The notes under the pieces are model-generated. The model made no database searches. It saw only the letters and a program-made list of their open reading frames with translations, and was not told the origin of the DNA. From Candidatus Methanoperedens sp. (GTDB taxonomy: Archaea > Halobacteriota > Methanosarcinia > Methanosarcinales > Methanoperedenaceae), in assembly GCA_030650845.1 (NCBI GenBank), contig JAUSDC010000058.1:1-35389 (forward strand): a stretch of DNA of 35,389 nucleotides. Direction: 5' to 3'. The position numbers and the translations under genes are program-made. Of this stretch, positions 27,641 to 34,504 are shown piece after piece (position 1 is the first letter of the stretch; each line of letters opens with the position of its first letter).

Positions 27641-27971
27641 TTAGCTTTAAAGATTTCGATTTTAATGCAGCACAGCATCATTATTAATAATGTTACTTTG
27701 GCTTATTTTTCATTTCAAAAATATCAATTATCGCACTGAAAGTGCAGTGCAGCCAATCTGTTGTTTTTCTATTGGTGTATCTTGTCATATATCTAAATAA
27801 TTGTTATCTGAGATTATAAGGATATTGGTTCGTACATATACGAATGAGACAGTTAATCATTATATTAAATCTTTATATTTATCAGAAAATGACCAATGAG
27901 CCAATTCTATCTGGGAATCTTTATATCTTCGTGCAACAATATCAAAGTAAAATTATCGGAGGATGGATCAT
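27641..27971. other. 330-bp divergent promoter region between the Hdr operon and the surface-protein gene
   Basis: No gene is seen. It should hold the promoter of the Hdr operon (minus strand) and of the surface protein (plus strand; TATA-like CTTTATATC near 27919). Small inverted repeats are GCACT-GAA-AGTGC at 27733-27745, within a CACTG-rich patch, and TTCGTA-CATA-TACGAA at 27829-27844. Either could be an operator. GGAGG at 27958-27962 is the ribosome binding site of the surface-protein gene. Confidence 0.6.
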
Positions 27972-29387
27972 ATGCGAGGATACGATGACGACAGGAACAC
28001 AAAAGTTTATATCGCAATTGCACTGGTCGGCGGACTTATAGCAGGAGTTTTTTTTAATGGAATGCTGGCAGCATTATTTCAATCAACTCCCCAGATGAAC
28101 GTAATAAGCATACCTGATGATGTCAGTGCAGGCAAGATCACAACTGTTAAATTCATAACCATAAGCGACGGGACTGCTCTGAAAAATGTCAATATTTCAT
28201 TATCAGGTGCAGCAGTTGGGAACGGAACAACAGATGCAACTGGAATGCTGGAACTTGCAGTGAATGCTACGACCAACGGCAGCATCAATATTATTGGGTC
28301 CAGATCTGGTTACAGGAACGGCACATCTGTTATAAAATCTATTTCCGGTCTTGATGTCAGCGCGTCACCGTCCTCATTAACATCCGGGACAGACACGTTT
28401 GTAACATTTAATGTTATAAGCCTGGGTAAACCTGTTGCTGGAGCGGCAATGAATATTTCCGGAGCAGGAATAAAATTTGAAGGAATTACGGATGCGAGCG
28501 GTCAGATAATTAGACAGTTGAACCCTAACGGCACTGGAAAGATCGCTGTGATCGTGAAAAAAGAACAATATGCAGATGGATCTTTTGTCCTTACATCGAC
28601 AGGTCAGCAGGTTCTGGCAGTTTCATCAAGCCATAATACTCTCATTGTAAATGTGCCGGTCTATGTAACGTTTACAGTAACAGCCGGCAGTTCCCCGGTT
28701 GCAGATGCAGGAATAAGCATAAGCGGAGCTGCAACCGGAGATGGTATCACAAGCCCGGATGGAAAGACGATCATTTTGGTGAACCCCTACACGACTGGCA
28801 CCATTACGATATCTGTAAGCAAGACTGGATTTGTGAGTGGATCAAGCACTATCACTTCAACAGGCACGCAATCGCTGTCAGTTTCTTCCTCCTCCTCGTC
28901 AATAACAGCTGTTACACCAACCTTCGTGACATTTACCGTGAAGAGTGGCAATAACTTCATCAGTGAAGCCACTGTATCGCTCACTGGAGCAGCAAGCGGT
29001 AATGGAGTTACCAACCAGAATGGTATCGCGATCATACAGGTAAATTCGGCTGGGCCAGGGACAATTACTGCTACAGCGACAAGGACAGGCTTCACTGCTG
29101 GCAGCACTACGTTCTTGGCAGTCGGCCAGCAGACCCTCAGCGTTAGCGCATCACCATCCAATGTCACCAACGGGGTCGCGACTTTTGTAACATTTACAGT
29201 AAAAAGCATCAATAATCCTGTTAGTGGTGCAACTGTGAGTGTGTATGGCGGCGGCATCACAACAGATGGTATGACGAACTCTGTTGGTCAGGTGACGCTA
29301 CAGGTCACAGCATCCAGCAGCGGGACGATAAATGTGGCTGCGCGCAAAGAAGGGTATACAGAAGGGACCATGACTCTAACGCATTAA
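27972..29387 (+). CDS. Surface protein with five tandem Ig/CarboxypepD_reg-like repeats
   Basis: One N-terminal hydrophobic helix (VYIAIALVGGLIAGVFFNGM) anchors or exports the protein. The rest consists of five repeats of about 86 residues, each with the pattern VTFTVxSxxxPVxxAxVSxxGAxxGxGxTxxxGxxxxxVxxxxxGTIxVxxxKxGYxxGS. They are beta-rich and Ser/Thr-rich, like the Ig-like or carboxypeptidase-regulatory-type folds found in archaeal adhesins and S-layer-associated proteins. Several NxS/T sequons are present. It ends directly after repeat five without a C-terminal anchor. The start is ATG 27972, 9 nt after GGAGG; an in-frame ATG at 27963 is too close to that site. Adhesion or a structural coat role is inference. 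Confidence 0.83.
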   Translation: MRGYDDDRNTKVYIAIALVGGLIAGVFFNGMLAALFQSTPQMNVISIPDDVSAGKITTVKFITISDGTALKNVNISLSGAAVGNGTTDATGMLELAVNATTNGSINIIGSRSGYRNGTSVIKSISGLDVSASPSSLTSGTDTFVTFNVISLGKPVAGAAMNISGAGIKFEGITDASGQIIRQLNPNGTGKIAVIVKKEQYADGSFVLTSTGQQVLAVSSSHNTLIVNVPVYVTFTVTAGSSPVADAGISISGAATGDGITSPDGKTIILVNPYTTGTITISVSKTGFVSGSSTITSTGTQSLSVSSSSSSITAVTPTFVTFTVKSGNNFISEATVSLTGAASGNGVTNQNGIAIIQVNSAGPGTITATATRTGFTAGSTTFLAVGQQTLSVSASPSNVTNGVATFVTFTVKSINNPVSGATVSVYGGGITTDGMTNSVGQVTLQVTASSSGTINVAARKEGYTEGTMTLTH

Positions 29388-31214: not shown

Positions 31215-32342
31215 ATGGAATTTCTTGATACTTCCGCTCATACTAAAGAGGAAAGCGTCAGGATACTCGCAAAAGAACTGGAAGAGCATCCTATATTAAT
31301 ATTGATAGGACCGCAGGGCGTTGGAAAAACCACACTTGCAATACAACTACTTTCTGAAAATGTGGGCGCCTATTTTGAGGGGAGAGCGCGTTCAGCACAA
31401 CCTGTAGTGCTGATAAGGAAAGATCTTGTCGAGAAAATGAGACAGGAGCTTTATGAAAAACGAAAGCTTCCGATCTTTGATGAAGATGAAAAACCCATAT
31501 ATGTCGATGTTTATGTCTATGACCAGGTCAAAATGCTTGTTGAGAATATCTTCGATGTCATGGAACTCGGAGAGCCTGAACTTATCAGGCAATTATCCAT
31601 GCTAACAAAAAAAATGGGAGTGATCCCTGAAGCCATTGAACTTATCTCAAGCGATGATGTGCTTGTGAAAAGAAGGCTATTGCGGCATCTGGATGCAAAA
31701 GAACGGTTATCAAATCTTCTTGAAAAGGAGAAAAAGTACGGGATAGAATCTAATCTCTGGGGCATCCAGGGAGCAAAAGTCACAGATGTAATTAATCGCG
31801 AAGGGGTGACGGATTATGATGAAGACCAGATGTCAAGGACGATAAAGGATTTTGACCGGATAATCCCCACAAAAGATATGACTGTGCCTGACTGCATTAT
31901 GAAAATGATGGAGATATCTGCAAATGAGAACAAGGAGAGCGGTTTTCTCGTACTTCATGACGACAATAAAGAAACGGTGATAAGCGACCTTGTTGTAGGT
32001 AAAAGTACAAATTCTCTCATAGGGGTCACCCTGCTTGAGATATATGTGGGTTTCAGGCAGAACAGGTCACTGTATCGTGCATATAAACATACGAAAGAGG
32101 GGAAACTCGAAGTCATACACTCATACACACCCACGCTTCAGGAGATAGAGGTGCTGGCAAACCCCTGGATACCCCCTTGCGATGAGCCAACTACGATAAT
32201 GTCAACTGCCGATGTTTCTGCAGCAGAAAGGTTTGACATCACGATATCGGTTATAGAGGCTGATGGTAGGGTTGAGTCATCGAACAAGAAGCGTAGACTT
32301 GAACTGGAAGAGATCATTTCAGGGATTTCCGAGATAAATTGA
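31215..32342 (+). CDS. P-loop ATPase of unknown family
   Basis: Walker A is clear at residues 32-39 (LILIGPQGVGKTTLAIQLLS). Beyond it I recognise no family: no Walker B or sensor motifs could be assigned with confidence. The middle (about 95-220) is helical and highly charged, and the end (250-375) looks like a mixed alpha/beta domain (GFLVLHDDNKETVISDLVVG, STNSLIGVTLLEIYVGF). There is no signal peptide or membrane helix, so it should be cytoplasmic. It lies 43 bp after the thermosome stop, past that gene's terminator; no good ribosome binding site is seen, though AAGGTAATTTG lies just upstream. A double T-run follows the stop. A functional link to the chaperonin is possible but not shown. 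Confidence 0.75.
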   Translation: MEFLDTSAHTKEESVRILAKELEEHPILILIGPQGVGKTTLAIQLLSENVGAYFEGRARSAQPVVLIRKDLVEKMRQELYEKRKLPIFDEDEKPIYVDVYVYDQVKMLVENIFDVMELGEPELIRQLSMLTKKMGVIPEAIELISSDDVLVKRRLLRHLDAKERLSNLLEKEKKYGIESNLWGIQGAKVTDVINREGVTDYDEDQMSRTIKDFDRIIPTKDMTVPDCIMKMMEISANENKESGFLVLHDDNKETVISDLVVGKSTNSLIGVTLLEIYVGFRQNRSLYRAYKHTKEGKLEVIHSYTPTLQEIEVLANPWIPPCDEPTTIMSTADVSAAERFDITISVIEADGRVESSNKKRRLELEEIISGISEIN

Positions 32343-32363: not shown

Positions 32364-32446
32364 CACTGACCGAAATATTTATCAAACATTAAAAACAACA
32401 TCTGAAGGGGGTTTTTAAACTCCCATATCTATAGGAGGTATTTCAG

Positions 32447-32800
32447 GTGAAGTATAATGCCAAATTAAATAAGGATCGTTTGGACCGTTTCAAAGTTGAT
32501 TCGTTAAAAGATTTAAAGTCCTCATTGGAACACCGACCGGATTTGAAAACGAAATTAGAAGAAGATCTCAGGGGTACTATTGAGGCTGAAGGGATAGTCA
32601 TTGACGATGCATTCAAACAGGAAATACATCAGCAGTGGCAGTCAATGATCAAGAAAGATGTCAGGAAGATCATGGACAGACAACCAAAGGAAAAGAAACC
32701 CCTGTATTCAATGGTCAGAAAAGGTAAACCACTGAAATTAAAGGTCAAGATCGACCCTGCCACAGGGAAGAGGAGCATCACGCCTGAGGTGAAAAAATGA
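32447..32800 (+). CDS. Small basic protein of unknown family, first gene of a two-gene unit
   Basis: A 117-residue, strongly charged protein (Lys/Asp/Glu/Arg-rich), probably helical in residues 8-80 (SLKDLKSSLEHRPDLKTKLE) with a basic beta-like tail (MVRKGKPLKLKVKIDPATGK). No cysteines, signal peptide or membrane helix are visible. The start is GTG 32447, with AGGAGGT 7 nt upstream. It overlaps the next gene by four bases (ATGA), so translational coupling and a shared function are likely. I do not recognise the family; the N-terminal half recalls leader-like helical regions, but no motif supports that. Confidence 0.78.
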   Translation: MKYNAKLNKDRLDRFKVDSLKDLKSSLEHRPDLKTKLEEDLRGTIEAEGIVIDDAFKQEIHQQWQSMIKKDVRKIMDRQPKEKKPLYSMVRKGKPLKLKVKIDPATGKRSITPEVKK

Positions 32801-34371
32801 CGACAGCAGGATATGATGTGATGGCTCAGATCAATGAGGAATTGATCAATAAGTTCATGAAAATCGGCTTTTGCATCGGGAAGTTCCCCACATTCAGCGG
32901 CACCTATACACTACCTATTGAGAATGTTCCAGCGAGTTTACAGGAGTTCATGGAAATAGGGTATGAGGTCTCTCTAGCAAAGGCACCCACCATTGATTTT
33001 ACTGCTGATCTTGGCATGATGATGGATGTGAGGGGTCAGGCTAAGTTCACGGTGCTGGGAGGCATCGAATTCGAACTTGAGGCTGAATTCAGGGTCGAAG
33101 TAATACCCACTTTTGATCAGATTACGCGTATGTTCAGGATAGAGTTCGTTGAGGCAGTTATCGAAGATATTGAACTGAACGATACCTACAACCTGCCTGC
33201 AAATGTTCTGAATAAACTTAATGAGATACTGGGCATCGCAATGAATGAATACCTGACCGAAGAGATCACATCCATCGAACTGAGCCCGGTTTTGTTCGCA
33301 CTTGACCTGCCTTACATGCCCCCAGGAGATGTGAACAAACTCACCATAGGTTTGGGGAATGTGAAGGTATTAAATTCGTCAGTCATGGCAGCAGCTGTTA
33401 ATTTGCTTGGTTACACAGGCGGCAATGTCAGTGCGATCACGGATTTCACGGCTGGTAATCATATTGGATTGGGTGTGAACGAGAACGGTATGCACAGGGT
33501 CTATGATTTCTGGTGGGCTCATACCACACATCCGAAGTCAGTGACCAAGACAGAAACACATGATTTCGATATGCCCAGTATCGTTGATTTTATGGACGAG
33601 ATCGTGGACTGGGTTGTAGCTGTGGCGACCCTTGGTCTTGTGGATGTGGATATCGATATTGACAGGGTATGGGCAGAATACGGAGCTAACATCAGGTTCT
33701 CGAAATTCGATTTTGATCTTAAACCCGGGAATACAGTTCAGCTTTCAGGAAGTGTCTCAGCAGATGTCTGGCTGAAGGTTTACATAAAGTACACGACCAC
33801 AACGTCGGTCCTCTGGGGTGCGGTTGATGTTGACGAGACCACTAACACTGTCACTGTATTTGACGTGCGCCTCAATGGGATCACGATTGATATTGAGAAT
33901 GCTGAAGGGACAGTTACAATTAACGAAGACCATCAATTGATGGTAAATATCACGGATCTTGACATTACCATACCGCTGCCCTGGGAATTGCCTGAAGTGA
34001 TCCTTGATTATGTGGTTGACTGGCTAATTGATCAAATCGTTGTTAATATGCCGCCAATTGTACTCTTCCCTGCAATAATATCCCAGCAGATACCTGACAC
34101 CAGTGTGACTGTGGATGCAACAGTGGAAAGTCTCGCAATAAATGAAGCTGAGGCGTTGATAACAGCAAATATCGGGGCATCTAATATGGGAAGCTATGCT
34201 CCCTATGTGGCGAATAAGAATCCTGAGAGCATGGAACTGCATAAAAGGGAATGCGAATGGGCACACAGGATAGCTTTCAGGAACAGGGTCTATTACTGTG
34301 AACTGGAGGAGGCGCTGGCAGCAGGTTATGATGGATGTGCATATTGTCTCCCCGAGCACAATACTGGATAA
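32797..34371 (+). CDS. Beta-rich protein with Ada-like zinc-binding C-terminus, family not recognised
   Basis: A 524-residue protein without a signal peptide. Residues 1-470 are rich in alternating hydrophobic/polar strands (for example TINEDHQLMVNITDLDITIP, VEVIPTFDQITRMFRIEFVE) mixed with amphipathic helices (LPEVILDYVVDWLIDQIV). This pattern recalls lipid-binding TULIP/BPI-type folds, but only by texture. The last ~48 residues match the small Ada-like metal-binding domain often appended to other proteins: H482-x3-C486, then NRVYYCELEEALAAGYDGCA, with C514-x2-C517. The four ligands are H482, C486, C514 and C517. It is translationally coupled to the basic 117-residue protein. Any function is conjecture. 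Confidence 0.72.
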   Translation: MTTAGYDVMAQINEELINKFMKIGFCIGKFPTFSGTYTLPIENVPASLQEFMEIGYEVSLAKAPTIDFTADLGMMMDVRGQAKFTVLGGIEFELEAEFRVEVIPTFDQITRMFRIEFVEAVIEDIELNDTYNLPANVLNKLNEILGIAMNEYLTEEITSIELSPVLFALDLPYMPPGDVNKLTIGLGNVKVLNSSVMAAAVNLLGYTGGNVSAITDFTAGNHIGLGVNENGMHRVYDFWWAHTTHPKSVTKTETHDFDMPSIVDFMDEIVDWVVAVATLGLVDVDIDIDRVWAEYGANIRFSKFDFDLKPGNTVQLSGSVSADVWLKVYIKYTTTTSVLWGAVDVDETTNTVTVFDVRLNGITIDIENAEGTVTINEDHQLMVNITDLDITIPLPWELPEVILDYVVDWLIDQIVVNMPPIVLFPAIISQQIPDTSVTVDATVESLAINEAEALITANIGASNMGSYAPYVANKNPESMELHKRECEWAHRIAFRNRVYYCELEEALAAGYDGCAYCLPEHNTG

Positions 34372-34405
34372 AACCGATTGGCTGCAAATCTATGTTATAA
34401 ATATG

Positions 34406-34493
34406 AAAAAAAATAGCAACGAACACAACGAACTCGATACGAACTCACGCCACCGGAGTTCGTTTTAGTTCCGTACCAGTTCGTTGTTTTTTT
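34406..34493. terminator. Bidirectional terminator between convergent genes
   Basis: An A-run (34406-34413) and CAACGAAC (34417-34424) pair with GTTCGTTG (34479-34486) and a T-run (34487-34493). An inner stem ACGAACTC (34439-34446) pairs with GAGTTCGT (34456-34463). The symmetry fits termination for both the plus-strand two-gene unit and the minus-strand methyltransferase. Confidence 0.8.
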
Positions 34494-34504
34494 CATGTTC
34501 CAGG

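Follow-up and report, generated by a model that had tools for sequence, protein, structure and literature searches.

A predicted tandem TULIP-fold protein with a zinc tail and a small basic partner in Candidatus Methanoperedens and other archaea

What do the two overlapping genes near the end of a Candidatus Methanoperedens contig (JAUSDC010000058.1) encode, and what could their products do together? The window, that is, the whole stretch of DNA analysed here, comprises 35,389 nucleotides. A preliminary description of it had reported an unrecognised, coupled gene pair, a basic 117-residue protein and a larger one lacking a signal peptide, with strands and helices recalling lipid-binding TULIP folds and a terminal Ada-like zinc module. 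Both open reading frames were found where they had been placed, and the features of the locus are as follows.

32447-32800, plus strand: small gene, GTG start, encoding the basic (pI 9.9) 117-amino-acid partner protein
32797-34371, plus strand: large gene, ATG start, encoding the acidic (pI 4.2) 524-amino-acid leaderless protein
32433-32439, plus strand: Shine-Dalgarno-like aggaggt upstream of the small gene (sequence reading)
32797-32800, plus strand: ATGA stop/start overlap joining the small and large genes (sequence reading)
34400-34500, no strand assigned: strong hairpin between the large gene and a convergent methyltransferase gene (fold -37.6 kcal/mol, z -7.5)

The start codon of the large gene lies inside the stop codon of the small gene (ATGA), and the small partner adjoins 15 of the 16 intact zinc-tailed large genes that we examined, amid varying gene surroundings (the exception is the homologue L038); the coupling, as well as the size and basic character of the small protein, thus agree with the preliminary description. 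Codon comparison with relatives put dN/dS at ~0.04-0.10 in the large gene and at ~0.09-0.23 in its small partner, and both are under purifying selection. Because these low values go together with an ATGA overlap or direct adjacency that recurs in relatives, both open reading frames are genuine genes. The inverted repeat at 34400-34500 is probably a two-way terminator for the convergent genes. Elsewhere in the window, positions 31215-32342 encode a P-loop NTPase (weak STAND and AAA matches) that is present in 30/31 genomes of the Methanoperedens genus, and its gene adjoins a chaperonin gene in every fetched stretch long enough to include the chaperonin position. Positions 27963-29387 encode a 474-amino-acid protein with an N-terminal hydrophobic segment, several Ig-like repeats recognised by eye, and weak YtkA, Big_1 and bMG3 matches.

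Neither a signal peptide, whose absence had been claimed, nor a membrane segment was found in the large protein, and its maximum 17-residue KD of 0.75 within the first 70 residues shows that it has no hydrophobic N-terminal segment. Scans of the pair with Pfam, NCBIfam and PADLOC returned nothing above cut-off, and a PDB sequence search with the large protein gave no match; the family is therefore rightly called unrecognised by these sequence profiles. Searches directed at TULIP families were similarly negative. PF06597 (P47) matched none of the members scanned, with E limits ranging from 1 to 10, and sub-threshold TULIP-family matches were confined to L038 (DUF1439, E 0.03; LBP_BPI_CETP, the N-terminal domain PF01273, best E 0.2, below cut-off). 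Furthermore, a three-sequence BPI/LBP/CETP profile, in which the BPI sequence agrees with PDB 1ewf, did not match the large-protein family with hhalign (P 0.1).

The fold was approached through structure prediction and internal sequence comparison, which divide the protein into two domains ahead of the tail.

32797-33441, plus strand: N-terminal TULIP-like domain, about residues 1-215 (AlphaFold2 model, Foldseek, internal duplication)
33442-34194, plus strand: C-terminal TULIP-like domain, about residues 216-466 (most confident region of the model; Foldseek, internal duplication)

The AlphaFold2 model of the large protein is of low confidence (mean pLDDT 56, pTM 0.40), and the models of both proteins were built on shallow alignments (8 and 7 sequences) of close relatives only. 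When the large model was compared with the PDB by Foldseek, all six matches at E<=1e-3 were TULIPs with probability 1.00, among them BPI (1bp1, 9.9e-9; 1ewf), LBP (4m4d), CETP (2obd) and P47 (5wix, 5.9e-7), with alignments spanning 514-545 columns. The next match, four orders away, had an E of 1.3e-2, after which BPIFA1 and SPLUNC1 appear. TM-scores of the TULIP matches were 0.16-0.26 and the rmsd was about 26 Å, probably owing to poor relative placement of the parts of the model; with so weak a model, it is local structure that carries the TULIP match. The elements of the model, at pLDDT 56 and TM<0.3, come in the order expected for the superfamily, in which a twisted antiparallel sheet wraps a long helix, and both halves repeat the order strand-helix-strand-helix-long strands-helix-strands, so that the strand and helix pattern described earlier is visible there. 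A viral fold library searched with the same model yielded noise.

Evidence independent of the model came from comparing the two halves with each other. With hhalign, the N-terminal half matched the C-terminal half at P 2.3e-6 over 182 collinear columns, while the reversed-sequence control gave P 0.021, and the score of 47.2 compares with a maximum of 24.4 over 100 column shuffles. Judged by sequence, the two halves stem from an internal duplication like those of BPI and P47, and the protein thereby has the tandem arrangement of two domains that is found in the TULIP superfamily. A Bathyarchaeota paralogue (L070:5573-6994), located beside a cytochrome c peroxidase-like gene, has the same core with neither tail nor partner, which indicates that the core stands alone. 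With significant fold matches that are all TULIPs and an internal duplication, weighed against a poor model and the lack of a sequence profile reaching the superfamily, the earlier TULIP proposal has gained ground, and the large protein very probably adopts a tandem TULIP fold.

The C-terminus of the large protein carries a tail that is also found on other proteins.

34195-34368, plus strand: C-terminal Ada-type zinc tail, residues 467-524 (ligands invariant; Ada_Zn_binding E 0.033)
34240-34242, 34252-34254, 34336-34338 and 34345-34347, plus strand: codons of the zinc ligands H482, C486, C514 and C517, respectively (sequence)
L077:434-3928, L078:2586-6026, L081:2069-6967, L082:106-4431, L083:3184-5853, L084:2139-4886 and L091:3769-6180: zinc-tailed leaderless S8, M36, M28, M4 and C13 peptidases

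The motif reads H482-x3-C486-x27-C514-x2-C517, and all four residues are identical in 13/13 aligned relatives. The Ada_Zn_binding profile (PF02805) matched the tail alone with 14.6 bits, under its curated cut-off of 23, and the four ligands stand at Ada spacing with His instead of Cys as the first. The zinc ligands of Ada are C38, C42, C69 and C72, of which C38 is the methyl acceptor (PMC10814553). Because the Cys38 position is His in all 13 aligned members, Ada-like methyl transfer is not expected. The resemblance to Ada thus stands in spacing and in a weak match below cut-off, but the further suggestion of a nucleic-acid-type module does not: the acceptor Cys is replaced, the pI of the large protein is markedly acidic, and unrelated leaderless peptidases of classes S8, M4 (with FTP propeptide), M36, M28 and C13 in related archaea carry this tail as well. 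In these peptidases the protein usually ends 6 to 9 residues past the last Cys; the M28 peptidase in L082 terminates at the tail, and that in L081 has about 20 more residues. M36 and M28 zinc-tailed genes also occur in tandem. The commoner tail end, YCLPEYNTG, gives way to CL(E/G)GS(E/K)R in both TULIPs and M4 peptidases, across different lineages (L083, L084, L050 and L051). Most carriers, among them the window genome, have a tail of the large-protein type on a single protein. A sister tail, GYxPCxxCKP, is borne by proteins with a hydrophobic segment at the N-terminus.

In the small protein, two segments were delimited.

32738-32785, plus strand: predicted basic beta-hairpin, residues 98-113 (model pLDDT about 63-74; alignment)
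32504-32641, plus strand: helical segment, residues 20-65, weakly similar to Os1348-type NHLP-clan leaders (hhalign P 0.0003-0.0014)

Its model, of moderate quality, shows helices and, at the C-terminus, a basic hairpin, and the fold search with it gave no match. In a comparison picked by eye beforehand, residues 20-65 gave a gapless alignment with archaeal Os1348-type NHLP leaders, and the shuffle minimum was P 0.021. In addition, NF038399 was the top NCBIfam match of one Bathyarchaeota homologue (E 0.058, below cut-off). TIGR03793 was not found in the window genome, and a Gly-Gly cleavage motif with a variable core is not conserved in the aligned small proteins. We take the NHLP likeness as a lead from sequence rather than as family membership. 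Archaeal proteins above the Os1348-type NHLP family cut-off occur at L112, L113, L114, L115 and L116, some in several copies per genome. Opposite charges are a constant property of the pair: in 7/7 pairs measured, the large protein had a pI of 4.1-4.3 and the small protein a pI of 9.2-10.2. Together with the overlapping genes, these charges point to a complex of the two proteins.

Among the genomes of the Methanoperedens genus, the pair is present in 3/31; the other relatives with fetched loci keep the P-loop neighbour, and the chaperonin gene where it was reached, but lack the pair. A search in other archaea, as the preliminary description had advised, found the pair across two archaeal phyla; full-length relatives come from Methanosarcinaceae, Methanosaeta and further families of the phylum, and from Bathyarchaeota. 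One Bathyarchaeota lineage has the pair at a single chromosomal site between corrinoid methyltransferase genes and eIF5A- and SRP54-like genes (names by eye). The large gene at L074:5859-7431 is broken into two overlapping open reading frames by a frameshift or an assembly error. The trees of the small and large proteins show similar groups, and in the large tree one supported clade (98/100) mixes the two phyla while L038, of the same family, lies outside it; horizontal transfer of the pair is therefore likely from the sequences. A viral or plasmid gene was rejected as an explanation: no viral relatives were found, a phage search with the tail as sole query found none, and plasmids carry the zinc tail only on other proteins.

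The reading that we consider the most reasonable, and somewhat probable overall, is that the pair forms a carrier for a hydrophobic ligand: a leaderless tandem TULIP equipped with a basic partner and a zinc docking tail. The two genes would form one module. In the large protein, a pair of TULIP domains, linked in the manner of BPI, CETP and P47, would hold a hydrophobic ligand, for which an archaeal isoprenoid lipid, a polyprenyl carrier or a membrane quinone or phenazine are candidates, and would move or shield it. The C-terminal zinc knuckle would be a structural docking module rather than a DNA-repair site, and the small protein would be a dedicated partner on the acidic large protein, in a role comparable to that of OrfX1 on OrfX3. 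What the analysis shows is the pair and its conservation, the tandem duplication, the resemblance in fold, the conserved zinc ligands and the complementary charges; that the large protein binds a ligand and its partner, that the tail holds zinc and that the pair acts in the cytoplasm, we infer. Lipid binding in the cytoplasm is a possible, predicted activity. A cytoplasmic TULIP would be unusual, since the predicted site of action of the recently described bacterial TULIPs is extracytoplasmic (PMC6791001).

The main rival to this reading, which we regard as rather unlikely, places the large protein outside the cell: the tail would mark proteins that leave unconventionally or by lysis, the large protein would act on membranes outside, in the way that P47 and OrfX accompany released proteins, and the small protein would be a chaperone or adaptor. 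The near-identical tails on leaderless peptidases of usually secreted classes fit such a route, as do the sister tail on proteins with a signal peptide and the tail-end variant common to M4 peptidases and TULIPs. However, with one tailed protein in the window genome and in most carriers, no multi-cargo system is visible, and the sheath gene is absent from the window genome and present in just 7/21 carriers. Cargo of a contractile injection system was rejected as a general explanation by the same distribution of the sheath gene (PF04984). A related and more speculative proposal, which we hold unlikely, is that the tail is a C-terminal address tag common to leaderless archaeal TULIP, S8, M4, M36, M28 and C13 proteins and serving an undescribed export or surface-docking route; if so, the pair would deliver a lipid-binding protein by that archaeal route.

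The remaining alternatives concern the nature of the proteins themselves. Taking the large protein for a beta-rich scaffold that resembles TULIPs only locally would agree with the low model confidence, the low TM-scores and the absence of above-cut-off sequence matches to any TULIP family, but we find this improbable, given that all six significant fold matches are TULIPs, four orders ahead of the next one, and that a tandem internal duplication suits the superfamily. Still less probable is a small protein that serves as an NHLP-clan RiPP-type precursor with the large protein as its lipid-binding partner. The gapless leader alignment and the NF038399 match favour it, but no family scores above cut-off, the Gly-Gly motif and a Cys/Ser/Thr-rich core are missing while the basic C-terminus is conserved, and no modifying-enzyme or peptidase-transporter gene was noticed adjacent. 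An Ada-related nucleic-acid repair or sensing protein is hardly credible: the tail spacing (x3, x27, x2) is close to that of Ada (x3, x26, x2), but His occupies the acceptor position in every member (PMC10814553 for Ada), the large protein has a pI of 4.2, and neither an AraC nor a methyltransferase domain is present. Ada-type DNA repair was accordingly rejected for want of the acceptor Cys.

Compared with known systems, the large protein shares with the animal lipid carriers BPI, LBP and CETP two tandem TULIP-like domains over about 450 residues and its best fold matches, but it differs from them in having no detectable sequence match and no signal peptide, and in its extra zinc tail, its small partner gene and its archaeal origin. 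P47/OrfX (PF06597; PDB 5wix) is likewise prokaryotic and matches the tandem fold, and it has a small partner of its own, in the OrfX1:OrfX3 complex of a small protein with a TULIP (PDB 8FBD; PMC13030710). In contrast, the archaeal pair has no PF06597 match, no toxin genes noticed nearby, a zinc tail, and a small protein with no recognised relation to OrfX1. The bacterial TULIPs YceB/DUF1439, DUF4403, DUF2140 and DUF2993 (PMC6791001) share the fold, with the sub-threshold DUF1439 match of L038, but are secreted or membrane anchored. The tail resembles the N-terminal zinc domain of Ada in four-ligand spacing and in the C-terminal half of the motif, whereas it is a C-terminal appendage, has His for the methyl-accepting Cys38 and scores below the curated cut-off. 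The small protein resembles NHLP/Os1348-type RiPP leaders (NF038399, TIGR03793) over a 46-residue helical segment, but falls below their cut-offs and has neither the Gly-Gly motif nor a variable core peptide.

In a literature search of partial coverage, the archaeal range of PF06597 aside, TULIPs were reported in eukaryotes and bacteria and no archaeal member was reported; archaeal representatives of the fold thus seem to be undescribed so far. The shared zinc tail ties the TULIP pair to leaderless peptidases, and an unexplained sorting or docking rule becomes testable. A conserved archaeal tandem TULIP would bring the third domain of life into the history of the TULIP fold, and one would then ask which ether lipid or quinone it carries as its ligand.
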